From Xanthostigma xanthostigma (lineage: Eukaryota > Arthropoda > Insecta > Raphidioptera > Raphidiidae): 64,000 nucleotides of DNA. Both the position numbers and the translations under genes were made by a program. The stretch is taken from positions 10,052,501 to 10,116,500 of the forward strand of contig OY754470.1 in assembly GCA_963575645.1 (NCBI GenBank), in the 5' to 3' direction. Positions 2,292-59,530 of this stretch are shown here, in pieces (within the stretch, counting starts at the first letter, position 1; each line of letters begins with the position of its first letter). Below the pieces are notes generated by a model. It did no database searches. It was not told where the DNA came from and saw nothing but the letters and a program-made list of their open reading frames with translations.

Positions 2292-3263
2292 TTTTTTTAA
2301 CCGACGAAAAACAAAAACGGAGGAGGTTCTCAATTCGACGCGTATATTTTTTTTTTTTTATTTTTTTTTTTTTTTTATTTATGTATGACCACGCATAACT
2401 TTTTACAGAGTAGTCCGATTTTGATAATTATTTTTTTGTTTGAAAGGGTATACCCTGAAGTTGGTCCCATATAAATTTGGTAGAAAAATTCCAACCCTAA
2501 GGGTAGGAAAACAGGGGATGATTGATTGTTCACTCACTGATTGTAATGTATGACCACACATAACTTTTTACAGAGCGGTCCAATTTTGATAATTATTTTT
2601 TTATTGGATAGGGTATACCTCGAGGTTCGTCTCATATAAATTTGGAAAAAAAATTTCTACCCTAAGGGTGGGAAAATAGGGGTGATTTATTGTTCACTCA
2701 CAGATTTTCATGCTGAGTTGTGTATATTACAATTATAAATTATATAGCCACAAAAAATTATTAAATAAAAACTTTTTAACAAAAAAATTAAACCGCCGAA
2801 AAACTGAAAAGCAAAAAATAATAAATCTTTTTATTTAACTAAGTTCTATCTAAGTAGTTGAACGTATGTGACAGTCTAGTATATCTAAGTAATTTTGAGT
2901 CGGCGTCAAACCATCAATGAACAAAGATCACTAAAAGAAATAACCAAATCAAATTAACAATGATACGTGAAATCTCCAGCGATAAACATTAACATTCTAA
3001 ACATGCGCTCTCCACACGACCACTCGCAAAGACGTGTGCCCTCAGTGTGCCCGTTAGGGTTGCTCTGTCGCTGATATTAACTTCGTGAACGCTCAGAGAT
3101 TTCCGGCGAAGGATTGTTGACGCCGACTCAAAATTACTTAGATATACTAGACTGTCACATACGTTCAACTACTTAGATAGAACTTAGTTAAATAAAAAGA
3201 TTTATTATTTTTTGCTTTTCAGTTTTTCGGCGGTTTAATTTTTTTGTTAAAAAGTTTTTATTT
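2292..3263 (+). mobile_element. Composite interspersed repeat with 146-bp terminal hairpin arms
   Basis: The head (ttttaaccgacgaaaaac...ggaggagg) matches a widespread unclassified insect repeat. Next come two tandem copies of a ~165-bp unit (2,381-2,545 and 2,546-2,708), each beginning atgtatgacc. The tail is an inverted repeat with 146-nt arms (2,763-2,908 and 3,118-3,263) that looks perfect by eye, around a ~210-bp loop. The arm tips read ttttaacaaaaaaattaaac. A second copy with the same design but different arm sequence lies at 29,780-30,306. No coding region was seen. Confidence 0.65.
2381..2708 (+). repeat. Tandem duplication of ~165-bp repeat unit
   Basis: Two diverged copies begin at 2,381 and 2,546. 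Both run through 'cataactttttacagag', 'attttgataattatttttt', 'gggtatacc', 'ccctaagggt' and 'ttgttcactca'. They sit inside the composite repeat described above. Confidence 0.8.
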
Positions 3264-3919
3264 ATATGATCATTGGTCACCCATCAACAAAATATTTGTC
3301 GACTCTTGAGCAAAGATATGTAACGACCGGTCCACACCCGGACTGCAGATGGTACGAAACTGGACCGCGCTTACAAAGAGAGAGTTTTCAAATGCGGAAA
3401 AATTTATGTAAAAGTAAATATATTTAAATATTTTCTCCATTATTCAGTTTCATTTGTAACATTTTTTGTAAGATATATTATCGATAGAAAAAAACGTTGT
3501 ATTTTCTAGGTCACGAAGTTTTTTTCAAAAACATCCGAACCCTAGTAGAAATTTCTTGCCGTCCCCTGCTGGAATGTCTTCAAGCCCTATAGACAGTATT
3601 TCTAATACCTAGCGTGTAAGTTATGAAACAAAAATAATTTGAATTAATACTCATATTTAGTTATTCCCGAAATTAGAAGTTTGTTTTGGTATACGTCGAA
3701 TATAATTCAAAACTAACAGTTCTTTAACAATCATTTCATATTATTACAGCGCTCTCTTATGAGTGTGTGCTGTAAGTACTTTTATTTAATACTACTTTCT
3801 AATAAATTAAGCGTAGTTCACGTACAATTATTTAGATGTCAGAGTATGCAAGTATAAAATAAGATTTATAGATGGTGTGCTCTTGCAAGTTTTCTCAATA
3901 TTTCGAATATATATGTCTA
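3264..3919. other. Intergenic, nothing supported
   Basis: AT-rich, with no ORF, RNA gene or clear repeat boundary. Confidence 0.4.
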
Positions 3920-3948
3920 CTAGCCGTTACCCGCGACTTCGCCCGAAT
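3920..3948 (-). mobile_element. Helitron 3' end fragment
   Basis: On the minus strand it ends ...gggtaacggCTAG followed by host T, with the gcgaagtcgcggg hairpin just inside. This is a standard Helitron 3' terminus. The body has been lost or replaced by the repeat that follows. Confidence 0.55.
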
Positions 3949-4284
3949 ATAGGAATAAAATCGTCATCGAACCATTAGGGTGCAAACATGTACTTCTGTC
4001 TTTTTTTACGCCGTAAGCACTGGCGTATCCAGAAGAGCAAAATAAGCACGGAGGACGCGGCTTAATAAATTTCTAATTTGCTCCTTCCTGGGCCAAAAGC
4101 TGGGTGCGCCCATGTTAACGTCATAGAAAAAGTTTTTGAAACAGAGATACTTTATTCAGATTGCATGCAAGTACATCAACAAATCCTAACATCGAAGAAA
4201 GAGACGCAGATATATTTTCGATACGCTTTGCTGCCTTCGCTTACCGCACATTGAGTAGATACAGACAATGATTCAAATAGTAAA
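3949..4284 (+). repeat. Dispersed repeat, copy 1 (direct pair with 63,568-63,903)
   Basis: About 330 bp starting ataggaataaaatcg and ending near cattgagtagata...gattca are closely matched by 63,568-63,903 in the same orientation. Inside is a small unit bounded by tggcgtatccag and ctgggtgcgccca, like the ends of a miniature element of about 95 bp (4,019-4,113). Confidence 0.75.
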
Positions 4285-5574
4285 TTTTTAAATATATGTG
4301 ATGAACACATCTTTGGGTACTGTGTACTGTGCATGGCCAAATTCACTTCGAACTGATGACATTTTTTTAAACAATTTGAAATTAAAAAATTCTTAAGTAT
4401 GGTCAAATAAAAAAATATTTATTTTTCTATAACATATACATACTTTAAACATAACATTAATATTTTACAAATTGAGCTAATCTTTAGACGTACAATAATA
4501 TGAATATTCACAGACAGAATGAGAAAATGATTTTTAATAATATTGAAATAATATAATATATCTTATAAATAATATATGTTCTGGAAAACGAACAGTTTTT
4601 TTTTCATTTTGGATTATTTAACAATTAAATTTTAATTTCACAATGGATATTAAAACAATTGATCAAATAATTATTGCAACAATAAGAGTGTTTTCCTTCC
4701 TAATCAAAGGTTATATTTGATAAGTTTTATTTTGAATTTGGAAAGGTGCGTGTGCAAAGTATTTTTCCTAAATATTTCAATATTATTATATCGGTTGAAT
4801 AAAAAAATAATAATTTAATGTCTTTACATTTAGATTTAAGATTGTTGGTGTCAAGATCAACATTTTTAGATTGTGCATCTAAGTTTCGTAGTGCTTTTTT
4901 TTAATCTTTTTAATTTGAATTACGTTTTACGCATAGCTAATTAAAAACCAAGATTTTTTGGTGAAAATACAAATCACTATAAACATCTGTGCCTTAAAAT
5001 TTAAGAAAACAATTGTTAAGGCAAAGATTCTAGTGACTAGAAAGAATAATAATAATTATTATCAACAAATTTAACTTTATATACAATAAATTAATACTAA
5101 AAACAACAGTGATAAATACGTAATGAGATGACTCTAAAAAAATATATTATTTGGAATGACAATATTCTGATAACACGAATGCCTATACGAAATGCAATAA
5201 ATAATCAAAGACTTTGAAATTTTGGATTCAGCTTGCAGTAGGAAACTTCTTCATTAAAAAAATCAGCCACTGTCATTAATAGTTGTCGCCATTATCGTAG
5301 TTACCTGTCAAACAAAAACAAAATTAGATAGGTACATGAACGTCTAACTTAAAAAATTCTTCGAATTGCCAATGAATTATTATTTTTTGATTATAGACCG
5401 CGCAATAACCATTTTTATTGTCTGAACTACCTATTTTTTTTTGTTTCTTCCAAGGAACACGTTTTTGTTAGAAAAGTTATTTCTTAGTGCCGTTATGATA
5501 TGCTTCCAATGAAGCCAGCGAAAATAAATACAGTTATATCTTCAGTATAAAGTAGTGTTGATCCAATAGAATGT
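4285..5574. other. Intergenic, no feature seen
   Basis: Very AT-rich, with no convincing ORF, RNA or repeat. Confidence 0.45.
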
Positions 5575-5610
5575 TACGATGAAGGAAGGTTTTGGTTAAG
5601 GATCATAAAT

Positions 5611-5680
5611 AAGCTTTACCAATGTTACGCTAGTGCGCAACGTTTCGAAAAATTTATTTTCATCTTCAGGGATTCAAGCT
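5611..5680 (-). ncRNA. Candidate hammerhead-like motif (left arm)
   Basis: CTGAAGA lies at 5,663-5,669 and GAAACG at 5,641-5,646 on the minus strand. Stem III would be 5,624-5,641, with seven pairs including one G-U and the loop ACTA. Stem I would pair AGCTT with AAGCT across an internal loop. CUGANGA and GAAA fit the hammerhead core; one extra U between the core and stem II, and a C-A mismatch in stem III, do not. Confidence 0.35.
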
Positions 5681-5774
5681 GGTCAAATGGTGGTAAATTG
5701 TTCTAACAACATACATGATCATTATAATTATATTATATTATTATATTCTTAGAACAATTTACCACCATTTGACC

Positions 5775-5845
5775 AGCTTGAGGCCCTGAAGATAAAAGTA
5801 ATTTTTTCGAAACGTTGGCTACTAGCGTAACATTGGTAAAGCTTA
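5775..5845 (+). ncRNA. Candidate hammerhead-like motif (right arm)
   Basis: Mirror copy with CTGAAGA at 5,786-5,792 and GAAACG at 5,809-5,814. Its stem III is weaker (GTTGGC against GCGTAAC). Confidence 0.3.
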
Positions 5846-5880
5846 TTTATGATTCTCAACCAAAACCTTCCTTCATCGTA

Positions 5881-6696
5881 TGTGCAGTTATAGCAAGTTC
5901 TTTTAATGGACGACTGGATTTAAAGTTAATCCGAAATTCTCGTTGACTTTTTGTAAAAGTTCGGTTCGATTCAATTTACACTATTTAATGTTATGTGCCA
6001 TGCTAGAGATATTAGTAATTTATTAATTGAATTGACTTTAATGAGTTCATAGAAAAATATAAATAAATGTGCAAAATTTGAATAAAGAAAACCACAATAA
6101 TTTAACCATAATTTGTAAGAAAAAAGATAAAAATAAAATAGATAATTTAATTAGGAATATATATTTATGGTACATGAAGTAACTGCGGTAAATTATGGGT
6201 AAAAAAAAGAATGATTTTGTCAAACCAGATAAACTACTAGACTGGTTATTTACACGAGTATCTTAATATTGGCGGTGTCTAATTTATTGAATTGCCTTTC
6301 TAATCGAAATAAGGTGGAGCTCTTTGTAAACTTTGCAATAATATAAATAATTAACTGGTTGTTGTGTTGCCAAAGGAGTTTGTCTCTTCGTATTATTTTT
6401 TTCATGTTGTTTATGCGTCATAGATACATTTTAAAAGCATTTAGTGTTTAGTAAAATGAAATAAAATGTAAAATAATTAAGAAATTAATTATTAGACGAA
6501 AAGAAATATTAAATGTCCGCAAATTATTGTTTTATGATAGAAAAGTTAATTGTAAAAGTCAAGTTATATTTTGTATAAACAAAAGTAGACTGAAATGTAT
6601 GAAAGATTATAGACGTTCGACAACTGAGATCGTTAGCGATGAAATGTATGAACATTATAATTAGATGATAACTAATTCAGTACGGTATTAAGTACC
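5881..6696. other. Intergenic, downstream of the secreted-protein gene
   Basis: AT-rich DNA between the hairpin element and the poly(A) site. Nothing else is supported. Confidence 0.4.
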
Positions 6697-6702
6697 TTTA
6701 TT
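6697..6702 (-). terminator. Poly(A) signal AATAAA
   Basis: AATAAA on the minus strand, about 55 nt after the TGA stop of exon 5. It is a good distance for 3'-end formation of the secreted-protein mRNA. Confidence 0.65.
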
Positions 6703-6756
6703 CGGTAAAAACGTTAAGTCGTGTGTAGATCAGTACAGATTCAGTCTTTTTAAAGT

Positions 6757-7886
6757 TCAGGGACGTCTACGATATCGCTTCATCGTTGCTGAAGACATGA
6801 ACGTCGGTGATTTCAGTTCATATACGATTGATTTCTGAATATTATACCCCGGATGTCTTGAGGGTGCATTTTTTTTACTTTTAGGTCGAACGCCCATTAC
6901 ATAATATTTTGAACCTGAAGGAATTGAATCATATCCATAATGTCCTCCGTATGTCGGTCCAGGACCAGGCATGAATTTGTATGACACAGGGTTTCCATAG
7001 GAATCAACAATTTCTTTGTCTGGAAGTGGCTTGAAATCTGGAATTGGTGGTGGAGGTCCAGCATAATTCTCTAACGGTAAATGTGCTATGTTTGCTTCGA
7101 CATGATTAATTGGTGTAACATTTTCGTTATTTTCTTCAACCTGATAATCAGGACTACCAGAAGGTTGAATATTTATTTGAATATCGTAATTATCCAAAGA
7201 TGCTCCAGGGCCTGACAACTCAGGATTGAGCTGTAATGGAAAGACTACGGGTCCCGCACCAGGTTGTGGTGTTGAAGAAACGCTTACATCGGCAGGACGG
7301 GGCTCGGGACCTGATGGGTTACCGTTGTTGAAAACTTGCACATCGTGACTCAGTCCGACATGAATATTTGATGAATAATCATAGCCGGGAGAGGGTTGAT
7401 CAGTAGGATAACTGGATTGACCAGACGGACTGAATAAATGAGAAGTTGAATGATCAACTGAAAGATGACCAGAAGAATAATCTTGGCCAGATGGACTCGG
7501 CGAATCAGATGGCGCTGTATGACTCGAGCCAAGTGAATGACCATAGCTTGATGGAATAGCAACATCATTAGCTGAAGGATGGTTAGATTCGGTATCGGTA
7601 TGAGAACTGCCTGACGATGAAGAGGCACCTGCTATATTCTTGCCAAAGGTAGCAGATGACGAACTAAGGATAGTTTGGATCAATGCTGATGGTATTTCGG
7701 AAAAACTGGATAGTTGGTAAGGTTCGTCAGGTGGGGAAGGACCGTGTCTCGGTGGCTCATTATAGTGATGTCCGTGTCCGTTGTTTATTGTTACAACTCC
7801 TGAATGTGGTTGGTTCAAGTTTGGTTGCATTGGCTTCAGTATTACGAGTCCTGCATGGTAGCCGTCTGGTACTGTTCCTTTATTAC
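6757..7886 (-). CDS. Secreted low-complexity protein, exon 5 (C-terminal 375 residues)
   Basis: Last and largest exon, continuous from the acceptor ACAAAG/GTAATAAAG at 7,887 to TGA at 6,757-6,759. Joined to exon 4 in phase 1, it encodes residues 265-640. The order is a His/Pro segment (GHGHHYNEPP), a long Ser-rich region with repeated SPSG, SSYG and SGQ-type words, a Pro-rich patch (AGPPPPIPDFKPLP), a Tyr/Gly segment (GGHYGYDS) and a basic tail ending KRYRRRP. No catalytic motif or transmembrane segment is visible. An alternative in-frame acceptor (TAAAG/GAACAG, exon start 7,877) would remove three residues; the upstream one has the better pyrimidine tract. The product looks structural and extracellular, but the function is unknown. 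Confidence 0.85.
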
Positions 7887-10240
7887 CTTTGTCACAAAGT
7901 CAAGTCAAAGTTAAATTAGTACAGTATAAAGTTATGGTCCGTCTACGCTTTAAACGGATACGGGAATTGATACAATCCATTTTAGAGTGTTTGTCACAGG
8001 AACTGGTCTAAAGTAATGTAAACAAATATTGGGCAAACGAGTGCAATCGAAAATAAGCGATTAACATCCGTTTAAAAAGTAGACATATGGATAAATAACT
8101 TATGTAATTATAAACTAAGGTCTTTAAACTATATATGTCGATGTATCAAACGTGAATTTCACATACGAAGGGCAACGCCTACCTATGACAAAAAGAAAGT
8201 AAGAAAGTGACTTCATAATAAGTGAATTATTCAGTTAGGTAAATAAACAAATGCAGTAATCGTTTATTTGATTTGCTAAATGTTCGATAAACTGAAATGA
8301 TTATATTGATGCTTTCAATTGTTCGGGAAATGTTCTTAACCTCATTACCTTGACATTAATTGGACAAAAATTAATTACAACAAATTTTAAAATACGGAGA
8401 AACGTGTTTAGCTATTCATGTTTGCATAAATTCGAGAAGGTGAAACTGCGCTGATTGTGTGTTGTCGATTCCGCGGAACGTCAAGTTTATGTAATATTTA
8501 AATTTTATAATTATGATTTGAAAAAATTGATTCCGTAAGGATTCTCCAATCAATTTTGTAATTTTTTCCGTTCCTTTCACAAATTTCAAAAACGAAACAA
8601 AAAAATATTCTTTAATTTTGAAATAATTATATAGGTACCTAGATATTATTAAAAATAATAATCAATCAGTTAAAGCTTGAAAATTTTCCTCCAGGATAAA
8701 CAGGCGCGATAAATAACCACCGTCATATTTTGTAATACAAAATATTTCAAATAATCTAACATTACAATGTTGCCGCATATCTTGGAATCGTGTATGATTT
8801 TACAGCCGTGAATAAAAATATTTCAAATAAGTTTCCATTATATGCATAGAAAAAATACAGAAACCGACACAAGTAATTTTACATTTTCGTTGAGATAAAT
8901 GTATTATGTATTCATTTTTATCTTCAGTAACTCTTGTAGAGTAATACAATTATCTTAGTACTAAATAGGCCAGGTATGATGTCACAGGAAATATATCAGC
9001 TGAATCATCCGAAGTAAAGAAGATTATTCGCGGTTACATGTTATTCAAGCGACCGCCATGTTCTAAGAGAGAGTGGAACTAATCTGCCGGTGTGCTATGC
9101 CGTCATTTTGTGAGCGCAAAAAAGGAGCGGCTGATTTTTCAAAGCAGTAGAATATCAATAAATCAATAAATAGAGAGGACAAAAAACTGCATTTTTGAAT
9201 TTCAAACAAAATTTTACCGCGAAACATTTTTTTATGTAAAAAAAGGTCTGTTGTCTTTCAATTTTGATATTACTTCACACGTTCAATGAACACATTACTA
9301 ATATAACCGGGTTACGTAAAACGATTGTGATTTTAGATAATGTCTTAACGACTAATTACGCTGTTTTATTTGTCATAGTTCGATAACCATTTGAGCGACA
9401 TAGATTCAAATAATCCAAAACCTAACAATGTTTATGTCGTACCTTGTATATTAGGTAATTTAGTGCATTGAACTTATTTCTCAATGTCATTGTGATATTG
9501 TGCGATCATTTTGCAATGCACTTGCTACCATTAATCTAATACAGTGATTTGTTCCATTTTACTAATAACACCAAAAGTGTACTCAGGTACGTGTGAATAA
9601 TATTAATTTTTATTCAATATGCTCTTTAAATTAACTCATTGTAATAATTACCATTAATAAGAAGCATATTAAACGAAAAGTATTTTGTAAGCAAAACGGG
9701 AGTTTTCAATCATTTTAGGCGCAACTAAAGTTTTTGAATTTAAACAGTTTCTCTGCAAAATAATTAAGATTAGTGTGTCACTGTAGGATCTTCGCTGTAA
9801 ACATTTAGTCTTAGAATGTTAATGGATGATACCACTCAACAAGGGCGTAGATATAGGAGGATACAGGGGGTATTTACTCCCCACCGTCAGGATGATTATA
9901 ATAAATAAAACTGAAAATAATACGAATACCTGGCTAAAAAATAAAATTTAGAAATACTTTTTGAAAAGGAATCTGTAAAATTAGTTTGGGAATAATATTT
10001 TGCCTGACATCTTCCTTCGTGAGTATTTTTGTGCGGTTTTAATAAAACTTAAAAAAATATTGATTTTTTTGCTTCACCTCTGAAAAAAAAAATATCTACG
10101 CTTTTGCCACTCAAATTAGATGACACTCTCACGGTCAAATGTTTGACTTAACTTTATTTTCATCAGGATTAATTAAGTATTTATAAAAAAAACTTTGTAA
10201 ACCCATTTTTGAAATACCACCTAATGCAGCTATATTGTAC
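7887..10240 (-). other. Intron 4 of the secreted-protein gene (2,354 nt)
   Basis: Donor GTACAATATA at 10,240 and acceptor ACAAAG at 7,887. The contents are mostly unique AT-rich DNA. Near 9,836-9,850 and 10,100-10,120 an inverted 'gcgtagatat' word hints at a degraded inserted element of about 280 bp. No gene on either strand is supported inside. Confidence 0.65.
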
Positions 10241-21438: not shown

Positions 21439-22223
21439 TATAGCTAAGAGCCAGCGACAGGTTTTTCTTACCAATTTCCTTATGGCTCAATGACTCGTAA
21501 AATGCTCTAGACAGTTGTACTATGTAGCATCGTGACTGTCAGCTGCGGAACTATCGGTGGAATAGACAACTGAAGCCTCTCACGCACCGTAAAAAAGATA
21601 ATATATTTTATCATTACCTATCGATTGACAATTTGTCAAACGATAGTTATTAATGATCTTTTATAAAAATAAACGTCAGCTGGCTGTACGATGGTGGATG
21701 TTACGTCAGCTGATCATACGAACTTGACGAAATGAAACTTTGTCAAAAGATATTTTTTATAATATTTAAAATAAATAAAATCGTCAGCTTTTCTGTATCA
21801 GCTAACAATCTTTCCCCCAATATACAACCAACTGACGATTTTATTTATTTTAAATATTATAAAAACTATCTTTTGACAAAGTTTCATGTGAAAGGGAATG
21901 ACTGAATTCATATTTCATTTCGTCAAGTTCGTATGATCAGCTGACGTGTAACATCCACCAACGTACAGCCAGCTGATGTTTATTTTTTATAAAAGATCAT
22001 TAATAACTATCGTTTGACAAATTGTCAATCGATAGGTTATGATAAAATATATTATCTTTTGTACGGTGCGTGGGAGGCTTCAGTTGTCTATTCCACTGAT
22101 ACTGGCGCAGCTGATGGCCAGGATGCTATATGGTACTACTGTCTGGACTTCTAGAGCATTTTACGAGTCATTCAGCCGTAAGGAAATAGACGACCTAAAT
22201 ATGTCGCTGGCTCCTAGCCTATT
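21439..22223. mobile_element. Foldback element with ~370-bp arms
   Basis: Two long complementary arms (about 21,439-21,790 and 21,815-22,223) surround a short unpaired centre. The arms contain tagctaagagccagcgac, the palindrome gacaatttgtc, gtcagctgatcatacgaac and a 3' partner for each. Divergence between arms is a few percent with small indels. No transposase ORF is present; a short open frame in the right arm is only a by-product. It lies in proposed intron 1, where it would form a giant hairpin in the pre-mRNA. Confidence 0.75.
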
Positions 22224-24045: not shown

Positions 24046-24795
24046 TATTTTATATATTTAAATGTATCATTTGAGTGAAATTTGTTTTTTTGTTTTATTC
24101 AATAATGTTTCATTATTATTTATTTAGTAAGGAATTAAGGATACAATATTCAGAGAATACTGGTAATATCACTTAAAATGTTCGAAATTTCTATTTTCTA
24201 AAGAATAATTTTTTGTTTTTAAAGTAACGAAAATATATTAATACTTATATTATAATTAGAACAATAAGTTAAAACTACATCGTAAATTATACACTTGTTA
24301 CGTAATGATATTTATTATTTGTGGCTTTGACCGGAGACGGAATTTCCTTTTCTATCAAAAAGGCGTTAAAATAAAATGAAACAATATTAGAATTAGAATT
24401 GGTTAATGATTTCACGATAAACAAAACAGTAAACATTTATGCAAAATATTTGCAAGAATATAATATAATTTATATAAATCTATGGGGTATGTAAGCTAAT
24501 ATAAGTGTTTTTAGTATCACAAAAAATATGCTACGATGAAAGATTTGAAAAAAAATTCGCAATTCAAATAATTACTATTCCGGGGCATACAGGCATCGAT
24601 GGCAATGAGATAGAAGACTTCCTCTAACTAAAACTTTTATAGGCCCTGAACCTTTCTGTGACTATTCTAAGAGCCATGTCAAGTTGGGGGTTCGCAAATG
24701 GGAGGATGAAAAGAAGTCGTTGGAAGTCTACTATAGGACTGAGACAATAAAAGAGATTTATCTCTCACAATACCAAAAGGACTAAAGAAATCCTT

Positions 24796-25077
24796 ATGCT
24801 CAGCAAAGCAGAACTGAGAATAATGACAGGACTCATTACAGGCCACTGCCCTCTGAGGTACCATCTCTCAAAAATGGGTAAAGCCCAAGATGATAACTGT
24901 CGCTTCTGGAAAGAAGCAAAAGAAACTGCTGAACACATCCTATGTGAATGTGAAGCAGTGCTCTCCAAAAGACTATTATATCTTAAAAGGCCTTTTCCAA
25001 AGCCTGAGGACATATGGAGAGCAGCCCCCAGTAAGGTAATAAGGTTCATAAAAAGCATTCTACCAGACTGGGAATAA
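24796..25077 (+). pseudogene. LINE ORF2 C-terminal open fragment (93 codons)
   Basis: The ATG is an internal Met of a longer polyprotein. The HCPLRYHLSKMG and C-R-F-W...H-I-L-C-E-C motifs identify it; a Trp replaces the usual second Cys (CRFC to CRFW). The frame ends naturally at the polyprotein stop after PDWE. Confidence 0.8.
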
Positions 25078-28922: not shown

Positions 28923-29519
28923 TGTTCACTGATAGTGAATAATTCTTGTATCCTATACTAGACACAAAAAATGTTTATTTCATTCAACTCAAAACTTACT
29001 GTTGAAAACTGCTAAGATATATTTTTTGTACTTCAAGCTCAACCGGAAGGTACAATCATTTTTTTTTCAAATGACAACATATATTTTTTTACATTTTCGA
29101 AATCGTCATTTTTTTCTCTATAAATTCATATAAAATTGTACTAAGGTTACACAAGAAAATATTTGAGAAAAAAGTTATCGATTTATGAAATGAACAAATA
29201 GTAATAATTATTGTTAATATTTACACATGTGAGGAGTGCTATAAAAAATAGTTACTACTGTTTGTTTCATTAGTAAATCGATAATGTTTTTCTCGAATAT
29301 TTTCTTATGTAACCCTAATACAATTTTGTATGAATTTATAGAGAAAAAATGGAGATTTCGAAAATGTAAAAAAAATATGATGCCATTAAAAAATGCATGT
29401 ACACTTCCGGACAAAAAAATATACCTCAGCAGTTTCCAATAGTAAATTTCAAGTTGATTGAAAAACTATTTAAAAATTTTCTTGCATGTGGTCGGTCAGT
29501 GTTACACTATGAGTGAACA
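28923..29519. mobile_element. ~600-bp foldback element, ends TGTTCACT
   Basis: Arms ~28,923-29,205 and ~29,222-29,519 are complementary with perhaps 10-15% divergence. Shared words include ctgctRagatata, cattttcgaaat, ctctataaattcata and gttacaYaagaaaatatt. The loop is only about 15 nt. No ORF of note. The long, diverged arms suggest an old inverted duplication. Confidence 0.7.
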
Positions 29520-29779: not shown

Positions 29780-30306
29780 TAACCGACTTCGAAAAAGGAG
29801 GAGTTTCTATGTTCGACTGTAGGTATATATATATTTTTTTTTATGTATGTTCACCGATTTCTCCGTCAATTATGGACCGATTTTCAAAATTTTTTTTATT
29901 CGAAAGAGTGCACTTCCGAGGTGGTCCCATCGGAACCAAGTCAGGATCTGATGGTGGAATCCGGAGAAATCGAGTGAAACTCTCAAATTTCAAAGGCACG
30001 CATACTTGGCCTACCCATTGCAATACTTTATCTAAGACTAAAAAGAGAAAAATAAAATATTTTTAACAAAAAAATTGAACCGACTTCAAAATATGCACTA
30101 AAAAGTAAAAAATAATAATTATTGTTATTTTTGGAGTCGGTGTCAGCCAAAATGAAATATATTCCGAGAACTAGAGACATGTAAGATTTAAATTGCTACT
30201 TTCGAATTCTGATGTGACACCGACTCCAAAAATAACAATAATTATTATATTTTACTTTTTAGTGCATATTTTGAAGTCGGTTCAATTTTTTTGTTAAAAA
30301 TATTTT
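29780..30306 (+). mobile_element. Composite interspersed repeat, second copy of the 2.3-3.3 kb design
   Basis: Head aaccgacttcgaaaaaggag, body with atgtatgttcaccgattt and gtggtccc, then terminal inverted arms of 92 nt (30,054-30,145 and 30,215-30,306) tipped by aatttttttgttaaaaata. Compared with the copy at 2,292-3,263, tips and internal (g/c)ccgactc words are shared while most of the arm sequence differs. Confidence 0.65.
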
Positions 30307-30369
30307 CGATTATACTTTTTGTTTACTAACAAAAACATATCTCTTCAAACTAAATTTCATTTCGTGAAA

Positions 30370-32564: not shown

Positions 32565-33124
32565 ATAATAACTGAAAGCACCGCTAATTAAGTATGTTTA
32601 ATGATATTAATAATGTATTATATTTTTGATGGGACTACCGTTTCATAATTCTATGGGTACTAAATTTAACACAAAAAATAATCATTTAAAAACGTGTTAT
32701 GTTACACTCCAGTGGCGTATTAATAAAAATATTAAGTTTGTCAGCTAATAACATTTTCATAGTCGATGAAATTAACTTATTGACCCAATATTCAAGGAGC
32801 AAAAAAAAATCCTTAATTCCGCGTCCAAAATAGTTTTTAATAGGTATATACGGTGACCAATAATTGGTCGTATTCCTCTTGGGTGGAGAAACTATGACTA
32901 ATTTGGAATGATTTACCTCTGTCACTTGGGGGACGGAAATGCGTCTATTTTTATGATAACGACACTTAGTGAAGAATATTTATTTTATTTTTTTTATTTA
33001 TTGCAAGTTTTAACACACAACATAAAATCTAACAGTAAATGTCGTAGTTTTTAGCTTTAGGAAGGTTGTTAAATTGGTAAGCTCTCAGATCAGGGAAATA
33101 AGTGAGAATAATTTTTTTGAAGGA

Positions 33125-33317
33125 GATTTATTTGGTTGAGGAACAATAGAAAAATTATCTTCACCAAAGTATCGCTTGTGGCCAACGTTTTGAAAATTAT
33201 ATTTTCATCCTCAGAGCCTATGAACATATAAGGATAAAAATATAATTTTCGAACCGTTGGTCACAAGCGATATTTTGGTAAAGCTTATTTTTCTATTGCT
33301 CCTCAACCAAATAAATC
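33125..33317. mobile_element. Inverted hairpin unit, hammerhead-like core (second family)
   Basis: Outer arms gatttatttggttgagg / cctcaaccaaataaatc. On the minus strand the left half reads CTGAGGATGAAAATATAATTTTC, then (C/G)AAAACGTTGGC and ...TTTGGTGAAG. The right half has cgaaccgttggtcacaagcg. Order of words and the terminal TTGGTAAAGCTTATTT are as in the 5.6 kb element, so the two are related. Confidence 0.55.
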
Positions 33318-34362
33318 TTTTTTTAACTTCCAAAATTCGGATTTTAGTAAAAAAAAACGATGTAGATTTTCTCGAATGTGACCCATTTCCGACCCCCCCT
33401 TGATAGAGGTTAAATTATTCCAAATTAGTTATAGTTTCTTCAAAAAGTAAATAATTAGTAACATTGACAATATTCTGAATGTGTCGATAACATTGTAGTA
33501 TAATATTGTAAAACATATCTGTTTAATATTTATCGCAATATATTAAATAGTTCATTATCATTATAAATTATATTGAGTGTAAAAATTACTTTCTCTTAAA
33601 TCGAATAAGACGGCTCTACTTTTGTTACAGCTTTATCTATAAGTATTCAATTTTGAGCAGGAATGGAACAATATTTGTGTAATAAATAATACATATCTAC
33701 TATAGGTATATTTTGTTTTTTTTTTCGTTTGAAAAGTGCATGTATATAAAGGGGGAGACCAGCTGTTAGCTGAGTAACAAACCAGACAGACATAGTTGAT
33801 CTGGTTCACTTTCACTGATACTGCACATATGTTAAAATACTAGGCGTCGCTCGTATAATGTACATTGACCTTTAGTACAGGTGTGTCAAAACACTAATGC
33901 ATATTAGGTGTCCGTTATTTGCCAAGTTGATTTTTTTTTGCAGCGCCCCCTAGATTTTTAGTTCATGGCTCAAAAAAATACCAGACCAAAAACCATAAAG
34001 GTGATGCATTTCCCATTTAAATAACATTGGATTTTTTTACTTTTTACTTTTAATCCCCCTCCACCCCAAATAAATAAACGTACAGAAATGAGCAAAACAT
34101 GTTTTTATAGGGAATTGAACGCTCTAAAAAAAAGTCTCTTATTATTTTTCTATAAATTCACTCCGTCAAAAATTATTCAAGGTTAAAGTTAAAACTTTTA
34201 AGAAAAGAAATAAAATTAAAATCATTTTATTGACCACGTTTTTGAAATGTGACACTCACCAAATTTTATCTGAAAATGCCTTTTATACTCCTCTATATTC
34301 GGAAATTTATTCAATTTTTTCGAAGTGGTGGAACAATATGAAAAAAATTTAAAATTTTTTTT
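33318..34362. other. Intergenic, no gene seen
   Basis: AT-rich. Contains a run of C near 33,394 and a gcgccccctag word at 33,944 that can occur in repeat ends; nothing definite. Confidence 0.35.
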
Positions 34363-45433: not shown

Positions 45434-45461
45434 ATTTTTCATAATTTATTTGTATATTTTC

Positions 45462-45600
45462 AACAAATAAAATTATCGACCAATTTTTCAGACAAATATA
45501 TTAACAAAAAAATATAATTAATATACATTAACGTTTCGATTCGGATTTGGATCTTATTCTGATCTAAATTCTGATCTAAAAATATAAAAAGTAATTAATA
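45462..45600. repeat. Half copy of the 48.9/59.3 kb hairpin family
   Basis: Contains aataaaattatcgaccaatt, tttcagacaaatatattaac, aacgtttcgattcggatttg and then gatctaaattctgatctaaa, where the ctgatctaaa word is doubled. It lacks the complementary second arm. Confidence 0.6.
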
Positions 45601-47148
45601 TTTAGTTTCTATTTATTTTTAATGAAAGTCGTGAAAGATTTTAAAGAGGTTGATCCGTTACAGTCCCAATCAAAAGTAAGTCGAATTCTAAATGGGAACT
45701 TTTATAGTTTATAAGTCGATGATACCAATAAATTATTGTCATAAAGGCATAAATAAATATTTTTTTTGATATTAATTAATTATTTCAGTACTTTATACTT
45801 AATGGACTAACTTTTGTATTTTTTGTACAAAGTTAGGCTAAAAAAATACATTTATGTAAATATCTGTATATTACATATTTTTTGCAGTAAATAATTGAAA
45901 AAAGAAATTGGAAGTAATAAAAATTAAAATTAAATCATTAAAAAGTTCAAAAATTCAGTTAAAATTGTTAAATCTGTCAAGAATAAAAGTCCATAATCGA
46001 AAAGTGCTAAGGTTTAATAATTTTTTTTATTGATTAAAAGTCTCCTAATTAAATTGGAAAAAATATTAAAATATGCGTAAGACATCGATTCACATAGATA
46101 GTTTTTGGAACTGCTGACATTATTTGGTTATTTGCAAAAAATTAAAATGAACAGTTTGCATGCTAGCTTGACATATTTTCCATAAGACTACATGTAAAAG
46201 TTTTTTTTTAATTTTTCCTTTATAAATCTCCTAATGATTTTGGATTTTTTACGGAAAATTTTGTCATAAAAAATCTATTAAAAAAACTTTATTTCAGATT
46301 TTTTTCATTATCTTCGTAAAACGGCTCAACCTCCTTAAGAAACAATTTTAAATAAGTAGTCATGGATATGATTGTGGGTACCTAAAAAGAAAGAAAAAAT
46401 TTATTAAAAACAAAATATTATTTCAAAATAATATTTTTCCCTATCTAATTGAGCATTGAGAGAATTTATATTTGATTTTATATAATATGTAACATTTCCG
46501 AAATATTTCTTTTAAAGAAATTTGTTTCATTATCTAAAATTTTTATATTATCCCAATAAATTTTGTGGTCATGTTCGAATTTATGTTTAGTTATTACATT
46601 AACTATTATGTTTGTCAAGGATTAATTTATGATTATTTTGGTGTATTATTTAGTTTGTATATTCATGAATTTGACTTATATCCGGCCGAAGCCAGGCCGG
46701 GTATCTAATTCTCTAGAATTATCCGGTCTAGATGCAATAATTGGTTCAAAATCTGTTCCCGCCTTGCGGTCACTTTCTGGTACTCGTATATAATGCAGTG
46801 CATCATATGTTGCACATGCCTGCAGATAGACAGTTATTATGTCAAAGAATCACGATGATTTACTTTCACAATAAAGAAATTAGTCAAATACTAACACAAT
46901 CCGCCGACACATGATTGTGGTCAGTTTTTTTTGTAAGGCGCGTTCACAGAAGAAACAACAAATAAGAATACATTCGGGATCAAAAGCGGCTTTTGGGCAC
47001 TGAGAGTTAACCAACCACCATCTTTGAAATAGAACATAGAAATTTATAAAAATTGAATTTTTTCTTAATTTTCTGGCTTTTACACTTTTGTCTATTCAGC
47101 TACTATAACTAAACTAAAATTTAATACTGACTTAATGTAATGCTTTAA
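45601..47148. other. Intergenic, no gene seen
   Basis: Very AT-rich; a ccggccgaagccaggccggg word at 46,682 looks like a repeat end. Confidence 0.35.
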
Positions 47149-47523
47149 GAGTATTCGTCCCTGCAAATACCCCCTGCACCCTTCATCTCAAATCTTTTCC
47201 CCTCGCCTAAAAACGGTTCCCGCTCTCTCGACGCTATTTTTAAAGCTAGAGGGTTCTGGTAAACGCCAAATGAAAGACAAAGAATCAGACTACAGATCCT
47301 TCAGGCGAATTTTTTTGAAAAAAAATTCCTGAAAAAACTTATAACCTTTTGAAAAAAATAATAAGTTACGTAATATTTCACACGTATGCGAGACTGTTTT
47401 TCAAAAAATTCGCCTGAAGGATCTGTAGTCTGATTCTTTGTCTTTCATTTGGCGTTTACCAGAGCCCTCTAGCTTTAAAAATAGCGTCGGGTGAGCGCGA
47501 ACCGTTTTTAGGGACGAATACTC
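47149..47523. mobile_element. TTAA-flanked MITE with ~150-bp TIRs
   Basis: TTAA at 47,145-47,148 and 47,524-47,527. Ends GAGTATTCGTCCCT and AGGGACGAATACTC. Inverted arms extend through cgctatttttaaagctagag, taaacgccaaatgaaagac and agatccttcaggcgaatttt. The loop is about 90 bp. Non-coding; the target suggests a piggyBac-type source. Confidence 0.75.
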
Positions 47524-47527
47524 TTAA

Positions 47528-48859
47528 ACACAAAACAACACAATTATGAACAGGGACACAAGATGGATGGATCAAAAAAATAATGGATTCAGAGCCACGG
47601 AAGTGCCTCGGAGCCAACTCAAAAATTAAAAAAACAATTAAAATTAAAATGTCAAGTATCACTGTATAAAATTGAATACTTAGACTTTTTTGGGCCAGGA
47701 CAGTACGCAGGGCGGGAGGCTACCATGAGAAACTTAAAATCAAAAATCTAAATATATTATTTCATTATCAATCAACAGAGGAGATTCAGAAAAGAGGAAA
47801 TATAATAACTGAGTAACAATTTTCACCAAATTCTTATTGGTTCAAAAAATTAATTCAAAAGTACTTTTCATAACTAACATTGGATCAAGCAACTTTTCGG
47901 ACTAGATTATAGACGCCCAATAACTAAGCTCATTTCGAACTGCGGTTGCACTTCCAAAATACATTTTCAAACTCTCGAAGCTTTTTTTGTGTAGATACAC
48001 CTTTATGTATCTAATCTCTATGCACAGCCGTACTCATTTGTTTATGTATAGACAAAAGAATTATTATTAACACAAATTACTGTTATGTATATCATGTAAA
48101 ATATTCCACTTGGTGTTAAATAATATGCAACGTACATATTTTTTTATATATATTTATGGTTTGAGATAATTATCTCTACATTTATTATGAAAAATTATTT
48201 ATATAACAGCATGGTAGAATTTTCTATTTCGATTCGATTTGCGAAAACAATATACCTACATCAATTTATGTACTTTATTTAATTTATAAACCAATATTGA
48301 CACGTTTATTTTTTAATATTCGTCGAGATAGATGGAGATGGACTTCCACAATTCCAACTCCACAAGTGGAGAATTGTACTAATTTCGGGCAAAATTCACT
48401 TTTTAAAATTTTACATTTTTTCGTTTTGAAGTCCCCCGAATCCAAAAAAACATATTTTCTGTAAAAGTCTGTACGTCTGTTTGTCTGGGAACACGATTCA
48501 GGTCAAACGAATGAGCGGATTGAAATCAAATTTTGGGAGGATGTTTGATATGGAAATAAAAAGGGGGGCAAATCGGCGCATGATGGTATACTTTTGATAA
48601 CGGATTTATTTTATTTGTTTTTACAAGGCACTAAAAAATATTTCATAGTTTCGGAAATATTTTGAAAATTAAAAAAAATCTACTAACCTCGGTCAAAACC
48701 GATAACACCCACCAACGAATTTGCAGACAGAATCGACATTCATTCGAACAAAAGTCAATACAATATAATTTAAGGAATATAAAAATATGTAAAGTACTGC
48801 TGTGAATCCACCTCAAAAGAAACTAAATTCGAAATTATTTTCTTAATTAACACAAAATA
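47528..48859. other. Intergenic, no gene seen
   Basis: AT-rich. Near 48,460-48,540 a gtctgtacgtctgtttgtct...gaatgagcggattgaaatc phrase resembles the body of insect Helitron or SINE repeats, but without ends. Confidence 0.35.
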
Positions 48860-49202
48860 CTCAAATCTTTGATTAGCGTCTGATTAGAACTCTTCAATAA
48901 ATAAAATTATCGACCAATTTTTCAGACAATATATTAACAAAAAAAATATAATTAATACATTAACGTTTCAATCCGGATTTGGACCTTCTTCAGAACTGAT
49001 CTAAAAAATATAAAAAATAATTTATATTTAAATTCTAATTAAGTAGCTTTTTATAATTTTTTTTTTCAAAATTATAAAAAGCTTTTTTTATGTTTTATAT
49101 CAGTTCTGAAGAAGGTCCAAATCCGGATTGAAACGTTAAGTATTAATTATATTTTTTTGTTAATATATTGTCTGAAAAATTGGTCGATAATTTTATTTAT
49201 TG
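48860..49202. mobile_element. Inverted hairpin element with CTGAAGA...GAAACG core
   Basis: Inverted arms (48,895-~49,035 and ~49,065-49,202) carry aataaaattatcgaccaatt, aatatattaacaaaaaa and, outward from the centre, TTCTGAAGAAGGTCCAAATC then CGGATTGAAACGTT. GGTCC can pair with GGATT/GGATC to make a short stem between CTGAAGA and GAAACG. A leader (caaatctttgattagcgtct...) is present on the left side only. Copies lie at 45,462, 59,257 and, leader only, 19,983. Confidence 0.65.
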
Positions 49203-49504
49203 AACACAAAATATACTGTTTGAAATAAATTAATAATTGTTTTTTACCTGTACAAATGCAGCTGTTAGGCTACCTTTCGAACTGCAATGAATACCACCTT
49301 GCATATATCTGAAGGTATATTCAATTACTTCCATAGCTCAGTAATTTTTATTAAAAATGGATCCAAACCGTGACTCAATTTTTGTAAAACTAAAAATTTG
49401 GTCAATGACACAGAATGATTAAAATATTCGCCTGTTTTCCCATGTATCGGTTTTTCAGTACTTCTTAGCGCAAACAGAGCTTTTAAAAGCTATATTTTGC
49501 TGAA

Positions 49505-59256: not shown

Positions 59257-59530
59257 AATGTTCAAATCTTTGATTAACGTCTGATTAGAACTCTTCAATA
59301 AATAAAATTATCGACCAATTTTTCAGACAATATATTAACAAAAAATATAACTAATACATTAACGTTTCGATCCGGATTTGGACCTACTTCAGAACTGATC
59401 TAAAAAATATAAAAAATAATTAATATTTAATTTCTAATTCGCTTTTTATAAAATTCTTTCAAAATTATTAATTAGTATCAAAATATTGAAAAAATAATTA
59501 TTTTTTCAATATTTTGATACTAATTTTATT
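59257..59530. mobile_element. Hairpin-family copy (CTGAAG...CGAAACG) plus AT hairpin
   Basis: Leader ttcaaatctttgattaacgt, then aataaaattatcgaccaatt and aacgtttcgatccggatttg-gacctacttcag. On the minus strand GGTCC pairs with GGATC, then CGAAACG follows. It ends in a separate 56-nt near-perfect AT hairpin (59,470-59,526, attagtatcaaaatattgaa). Confidence 0.65.

Follow-up and report, generated by a model that had tools for sequence, protein, structure and literature searches.

What kind of mobile element carries two mirror-image ribozyme motifs in one short non-coding unit? The question is raised by a 306-bp inverted element, here called element A, at positions 5575 to 5880 of a 64,000-nt stretch of the genome of Xanthostigma xanthostigma (Raphidioptera; contig OY754470.1, positions 10,052,501 to 10,116,500, forward strand; the whole stretch is called the window below). 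An initial annotation, made from the letters alone, had described both arms of this element as hammerhead-like and had pointed to Penelope-like elements (PLEs) and retrozymes as established carriers of such ribozymes. Element A has mirrored arms, a tail on one of them and target-site duplications, and motifs of the same kind lie near PLE coding regions elsewhere in the genome. In all likelihood it is a non-autonomous PLE derivative, made of two head-to-head pseudo-long terminal repeats (pseudo-LTRs) with minimal hammerheads and a tail on one side, and presumably inserted as complementary DNA (cDNA). The annotated observation was partly confirmed and its interpretation partly supported: hammerhead-type motif, link to PLEs and mirrored arrangement were right in kind.

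Anatomy of element A and its copies

The inverted repeat was found as annotated, with two arms of 139 nt that are identical at 127 of 139 positions and lie 28 nt apart (Table 1). The annotated extent was correct for this repeat and missed the tail and the target-site duplications outside it. Because an exact duplication and a tail are present at the window copy, we take the insertion to span about 5539-5880 (or -5884), i.e. roughly 342 bp. A region encoding reverse transcriptase (RT) or a GIY-YIG endonuclease was not present in element A, and the sole window frame of at least 130 aa falls outside it.

We searched the 623-Mb assembly (28 contigs) for further copies, scoring 40 of 2300 first-look candidates; the search was biased to full-length copies and its counts are lower bounds. 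Besides the window copy, family A comprised at least 40 places (80 strand matches) of 258-328 bp with 81-90% identity, and all 40 scored places matched both strands, as inverted pairs do. A one-sided tail of about 36 nt, oriented alike, was visible in 39 of them. The short arm ends at or near TACGATGAAGG and adjoins other DNA, and the long arm continues into roughly ACATTCTATTGGATCAACACTACTTTATRCTGAAGACAT, often slightly shorter, before other DNA follows (in the tail alignment, L125 has a gap inside the tail and L160 is a partial match misplaced by extrapolation). In 29 of the 40 copies both outer flanks shared an exact repeat of at least 8 nt, compared to 3.6% of 1951 swapped control pairs.

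A short, non-coding, multi-copy inverted repeat, with TA...TA ends in many copies, might also be a foldback DNA transposon or a miniature inverted-repeat transposable element, whose arms would be terminal inverted repeats and whose hammerhead match would be incidental. The equal ends and fixed-length duplication expected of such elements were not found in family A, where the tail makes the ends unequal and the duplication length varies among copies. The motif also recurs close to PLE coding regions, where its stems differ in sequence and pair all the same. Taken together, these results make a DNA-transposon origin improbable.

A minimal hammerhead motif without stem III

Both arms carry CUGAAGA, an extra base, a hairpin and GAAAC, at 5669-5642 (-) and 5786-5813 (+), in agreement with the annotated CUGANGA, stem and GAAA. 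The consensus of 80 family A arms reads GGCC CUGAAGA U GAAAA UAAAU UUUUC GAAACGUU GGCC, with the predicted cut before the final GGCC. It represents a complete minimal motif without stem III, in which 4/4 pairs of stem I and 5/5 pairs of stem II form. The arms differ from this consensus by 4.4% on average; the whole core of CUGANGA, stem II and GAAAC-GUH is kept in 51 of 80, and core plus all nine stem pairs in 38 of 80. Both window arms retain the core letters and have incomplete stems (Table 1). The pattern CUGAAGA-N-hairpin-GAAAC occurs four times in the window compared to 0.42 expected, once per arm of element A, pointing outward, and twice in a further element, C. Family A arms are expected to hold a PLE-type minimal hammerhead, with self-cleavage of intact motifs predicted between GUU and GG; on the left arm this site lies 25 nt from the A of an ATG (manual count). 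The annotation had placed the cut after AU(U) before GG.

That placement belongs to a different model, a pair of canonical type I hammerheads in which the second hairpin serves as stem III and an outer stem is formed as well. The left arm alone, on the minus strand, does fold into such a three-way junction at minimum free energy, which accounts for the annotated drawing. A fuller descriptor of this model found three window places, namely both motifs of element C and the left arm of element A, and missed the right arm; in 60 shuffles of the whole window it found 1 place. The seven outer-stem pairs each form in 73-79 of 77-79 family A arms and hardly vary, so that the copies neither support nor refute this stem. 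The proposed stem III fared worse: pairs 1 to 7 are formed by 71/79, 75/79, 77/79, 34/79, 3/78, 2/78 and 76/78 arms, pairs 4-6 thus being mostly absent, and the GCGC that completes the stem in the left arm occurs in 1 of 80 arms. The 5' strand of the outer stem is also absent from the related element B, as read from the alignment by eye. Rfam, for which the annotation had proposed a covariance-model search of both arms, returned no hammerhead row at gathering and E-value thresholds for the window, the element, each arm, copy L130 or the motif of family D; the long hairpin drew numerous microRNA rows below threshold. We consider the type I model very unlikely and retain the minimal motif.

The annotation had further suggested looking for compensatory changes. 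No useful covariation was found among the 80 arms of the young family A, whose copies are too alike to give such a signal; between families, however, stems have changed and still pair.

Motifs of other families and PLE coding loci

Element B, a relative of element A, has in its left arm 4/4 pairs in stem I, 5/5 in stem II and AAAA replacing GAAA, and in its right arm a degraded motif. No convincing target duplication was found for element B and other foldbacks. Element C represents a second family with the same mirrored anatomy, and its tail matches part of locus L164. Further family C copies in the window, at 45459-45615 and 59262-59471, are not mirrored over their length. At about 1005-1310 of L125 a family C copy is inserted near the family A copy, with GTACTCTAGTT on both outer sides (by eye).

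Scanning the flanks of the 40 family A loci, outside family A itself, gave motifs at L125+1175 (family C) and L128-3188 (family D). A search of the genome for GIY-YIG domains (150 of 521 candidates scored) gave 37 matches, 18 of which lie in the 16 loci fetched (two of these overlap). These loci yielded motifs at L162+2178 (E), L168-894 (F), L169+2254 (G) and in the overlapping L171/L173 (G2), the latter being one region with two mirrored motifs. The motif stands downstream of the GIY-YIG match and on the same strand at L162, L168, L169 and the overlapping loci L171/L173; L168 also has an RT domain. At L171/L173 (C5:12169472-12173095) outward-pointing hammerhead-type motifs flank two GIY-YIG matches. 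Locus L174 has an 804-aa frame that contains both an RVT_1 and a GIY-YIG domain, and at 3862-7013 of this locus PLE copies stand head to head with arms of 1576-1577 nt, 100% complementary and without a spacer. No PLE coding frames were evident by frame listing in 4 kb beside motif D, where no domain search was made.

Eight motifs, chosen to represent six sequence groups (A with B, C, D, E, F and G), were compared, with A entering as its consensus and C as the L125 copy. With a skip of one base, stem II formed 4-6 contiguous pairs in all eight, and with a skip of zero or two bases it formed none; stem I formed 4/4 pairs in seven and 3/4 in L168. When strands were swapped between A, C and D, 1-2 of 4 pairs remained in stem I and 1-3 of 5 in stem II. 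The stems of the other families, four of whose motifs lie near GIY-YIG matches, are unrelated in sequence and pair nonetheless, each stem II being preceded by a single additional base. The initial annotation had taken this base as a reason to leave activity open; the base is real, and since it is common to all eight motifs it is no defect peculiar to element A.

Viral contigs served as a background: of 91 places with the core letters none had both stems and one had stem II alone. This background tests the stems only, as the contigs were chosen by core letters and have a base composition unlike that of the host. A loose pattern matched 120 viral stretches, which were put to background use only, the best-paired of them (L019) sitting among prokaryote-type frames. 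Specific patterns had 0 matches in viral contigs (two patterns) and in genome contigs (one pattern). A 46-nt match to six Bacillus phage records reached an E-value of 0.1 only and was rejected.

Comparison with published systems

The anatomy of element A has close parallels in rotifers. The Penelope elements Pen2a and Pen2 of Adineta vaga are described as having head-to-head pseudo-LTRs of which the inverted one falls 37 bp short of the direct copies, an optional 31-bp tail, target duplications of 9-10 bp, and head-to-head palindromes ascribed to self-priming (PMC3846280). Unlike family A, with pseudo-LTRs only and at least 40 copies, those elements have, or once had, PLE or captured sequence enclosed by their pseudo-LTRs. 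Inverted pseudo-LTRs and short 3' extensions are named as PLE peculiarities in a further paper (PMC8969392). The mirrored doubling to which the annotation had drawn attention is thus a described PLE trait and not new by itself.

The motif likewise has precedents. PLE hammerheads are described as minimal, without helix III (PMC6155905; PMC7761336). Poseidon PAc of Anolis has such a hammerhead, and in contrast to it element A is too short for a coding region and its window copies are worn; cleavage of a PLE hammerhead needed protein and was dispensable for insertion in vitro (PMC11167929). Core insertions, some of low activity, are reported for natural hammerheads, none of them, among the passages available, where the extra base stands here (PMC3088659).

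Animal non-LTR retrozymes, which spread as ribozyme-cut circular RNA, partly fit in size and motif, being non-coding, a few hundred bp long and equipped with a type I hammerhead (PMC7229834, in part). Retrozymes are however arranged as head-to-tail tandem repeats, and element A is an inverted pair; head-to-tail tandem copies were not among the 40 scored places, which came from a search favouring full-length copies and were all inverted pairs. The arms moreover end at a fixed tail and not at the predicted cut site. A retrozyme origin is accordingly a far-fetched alternative to a PLE derivative.

Mirrored pseudo-LTR anatomy and the PLE minimal hammerhead are known, and the short, multi-copy, coding-less PLE derivative is a new variant. 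In the open-licence literature, screened mostly by titles and the beginnings of abstracts, no description of a stand-alone mirrored-pseudo-LTR family was found, and nothing relevant by title on Lepidoptera and hammerheads.

Proposed origin and mechanism

An element of this kind would be mobilised in trans, its cDNA being inserted by RT and GIY-YIG endonuclease supplied from elsewhere; such an insertion would leave the 8-nt target duplication seen at the window copy. The mirror form is most plausibly due to reverse transcription that primes itself or turns back on its template, as already proposed for PLEs. An intact hammerhead would cut between GUU and GG, probably as a dimer, to go by published work on the class. 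Small hammerhead variants of PLEs with cleavage in dimeric form were reportedly described by Lunse et al. in 2017, the same class to judge by the title alone. As a whole RNA, element A was computed to form one long hairpin (-201.4 kcal/mol, z -27.8), in which both worn motifs of the window transcript would be buried. Since the motifs are worn and probably buried, we expect weak or no cleavage from the window locus.

Arms that belong to the same copy have 15 rare variants in common, compared to 2.4 on average and at most 7 when arms were re-paired 500 times. Divergence is 5.4% between the arms of the same copy and, across copies, 7.9% for long versus short arms, 6.9% among long arms and 8.9% among short arms. 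This sharing and closeness within copies fits turn-back copying or later gene conversion. Arm-to-arm copying does not explain everything, because 239 rare variants are confined to one arm and the partner from the same copy is the closest arm for only 8 of 40 long arms.

These one-arm variants are among several results that weigh against the proposed PLE derivative. The core is barely more conserved than the rest, with 3.6% substitutions compared to 4.5% elsewhere among copies, and Rfam did not recover the motif. No duplication of at least 8 nt was found in 11 of the 40 copies, and a few of the other 29 sit in simple repeats. A coding PLE carrying an A arm was not found: none of the 16 PLE loci fetched matched A or B. 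By the pattern applied, five of these loci (L162, L168, L169, L171, L173) contain the motif, which was not found in L163-L167, L170, L172 and L174-L177. The eight motifs are chosen representatives. In the window right arm, the A.C mismatch at the closing pair leaves stem II without contiguous pairing whichever skip is applied; for the window C copies, skipping 0, 1 and 2 bases yields 2, 5 and 1 pairs. C2 has 3/4 pairs in stem I, and the degraded C3 and B_right were left out.

A wider proposal is more tentative, and we think it possible though rather less likely than its opposite. Several PLE families of this one genome might independently have yielded short, coding-less elements of mirrored, ribozyme-bearing pseudo-LTRs only. 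Snap-back reverse transcription would regenerate the mirror from a single arm whenever the element inserts, and the resulting hairpin would hide the self-cutting RNA.

Features of the window

Table 1. Parts of element A and related elements, in window positions
Feature	Position	Strand	Remark
Target-site duplication CAGTTATA, left copy	5531..5538		exact 8-nt match with 5885-5892
Tail, long arm extending past inverted repeat	5539..5574	-	one-sided extension in 39/40 copies
Long arm (pseudo-LTR), sense on minus	5575..5713	-	arm comparison and copy alignment
Left motif, stem I 3' strand	5635..5638	-	
Left motif core: CUGAAGA, extra U, stem II 5/5, GAAACGUU	5639..5669	-	predicted cut between 5639 and 5638
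Left motif, stem I 5' strand	5670..5673	-	2/4 pairs kept
AT-rich centre separating arms, 28 nt	5714..5741		
Short arm (inverted pseudo-LTR), sense on plus	5742..5880	+	arm comparison and copy alignment
Right motif, stem I 5' strand GGCC	5782..5785	+	4/4 pairs including one G.U
Right motif core: CUGAAGA, extra U, stem II 4/5 (closing A.C), GAAACGUU	5786..5816	+	predicted cut between 5816 and 5817
Right motif, stem I 3' strand GGCU	5817..5820	+	
Unexplained 4 nt separating arm end from duplication	5881..5884		
Target-site duplication CAGTTATA, right copy	5885..5892		8 nt, pairs with 5531-5538
Related inverted element B	33124..33318		74-76% identical to A
Element C, second family, same mirrored anatomy	48849..49213		11-nt duplication AACACAAAATA
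Element C motifs	48993-48965; 49106-49134	-; +	

The window holds five more long inverted repeats, at 21506-22147, 2762-3264 (arms 100% complementary), 29081-29378, 47206-47512 and 30040-30320. A frame at 24751-25074 with a zf-RVT match just under the curated cut-off is possibly a remnant of a long interspersed nuclear element, and at 6760-7899 on the minus strand there is a 380-aa open frame that has no Pfam match and a high content of Gly, Ser and Pro.

Significance for Penelope-like elements

The families of this one genome show the minimal hammerhead, in the representatives with one extra base before stem II. Short non-autonomous PLE families provide a handle on the poorly known insertion mechanism of PLEs, as they offer many independent junctions, tails and duplications, and the variants shared by paired arms can test the proposed self-priming step.
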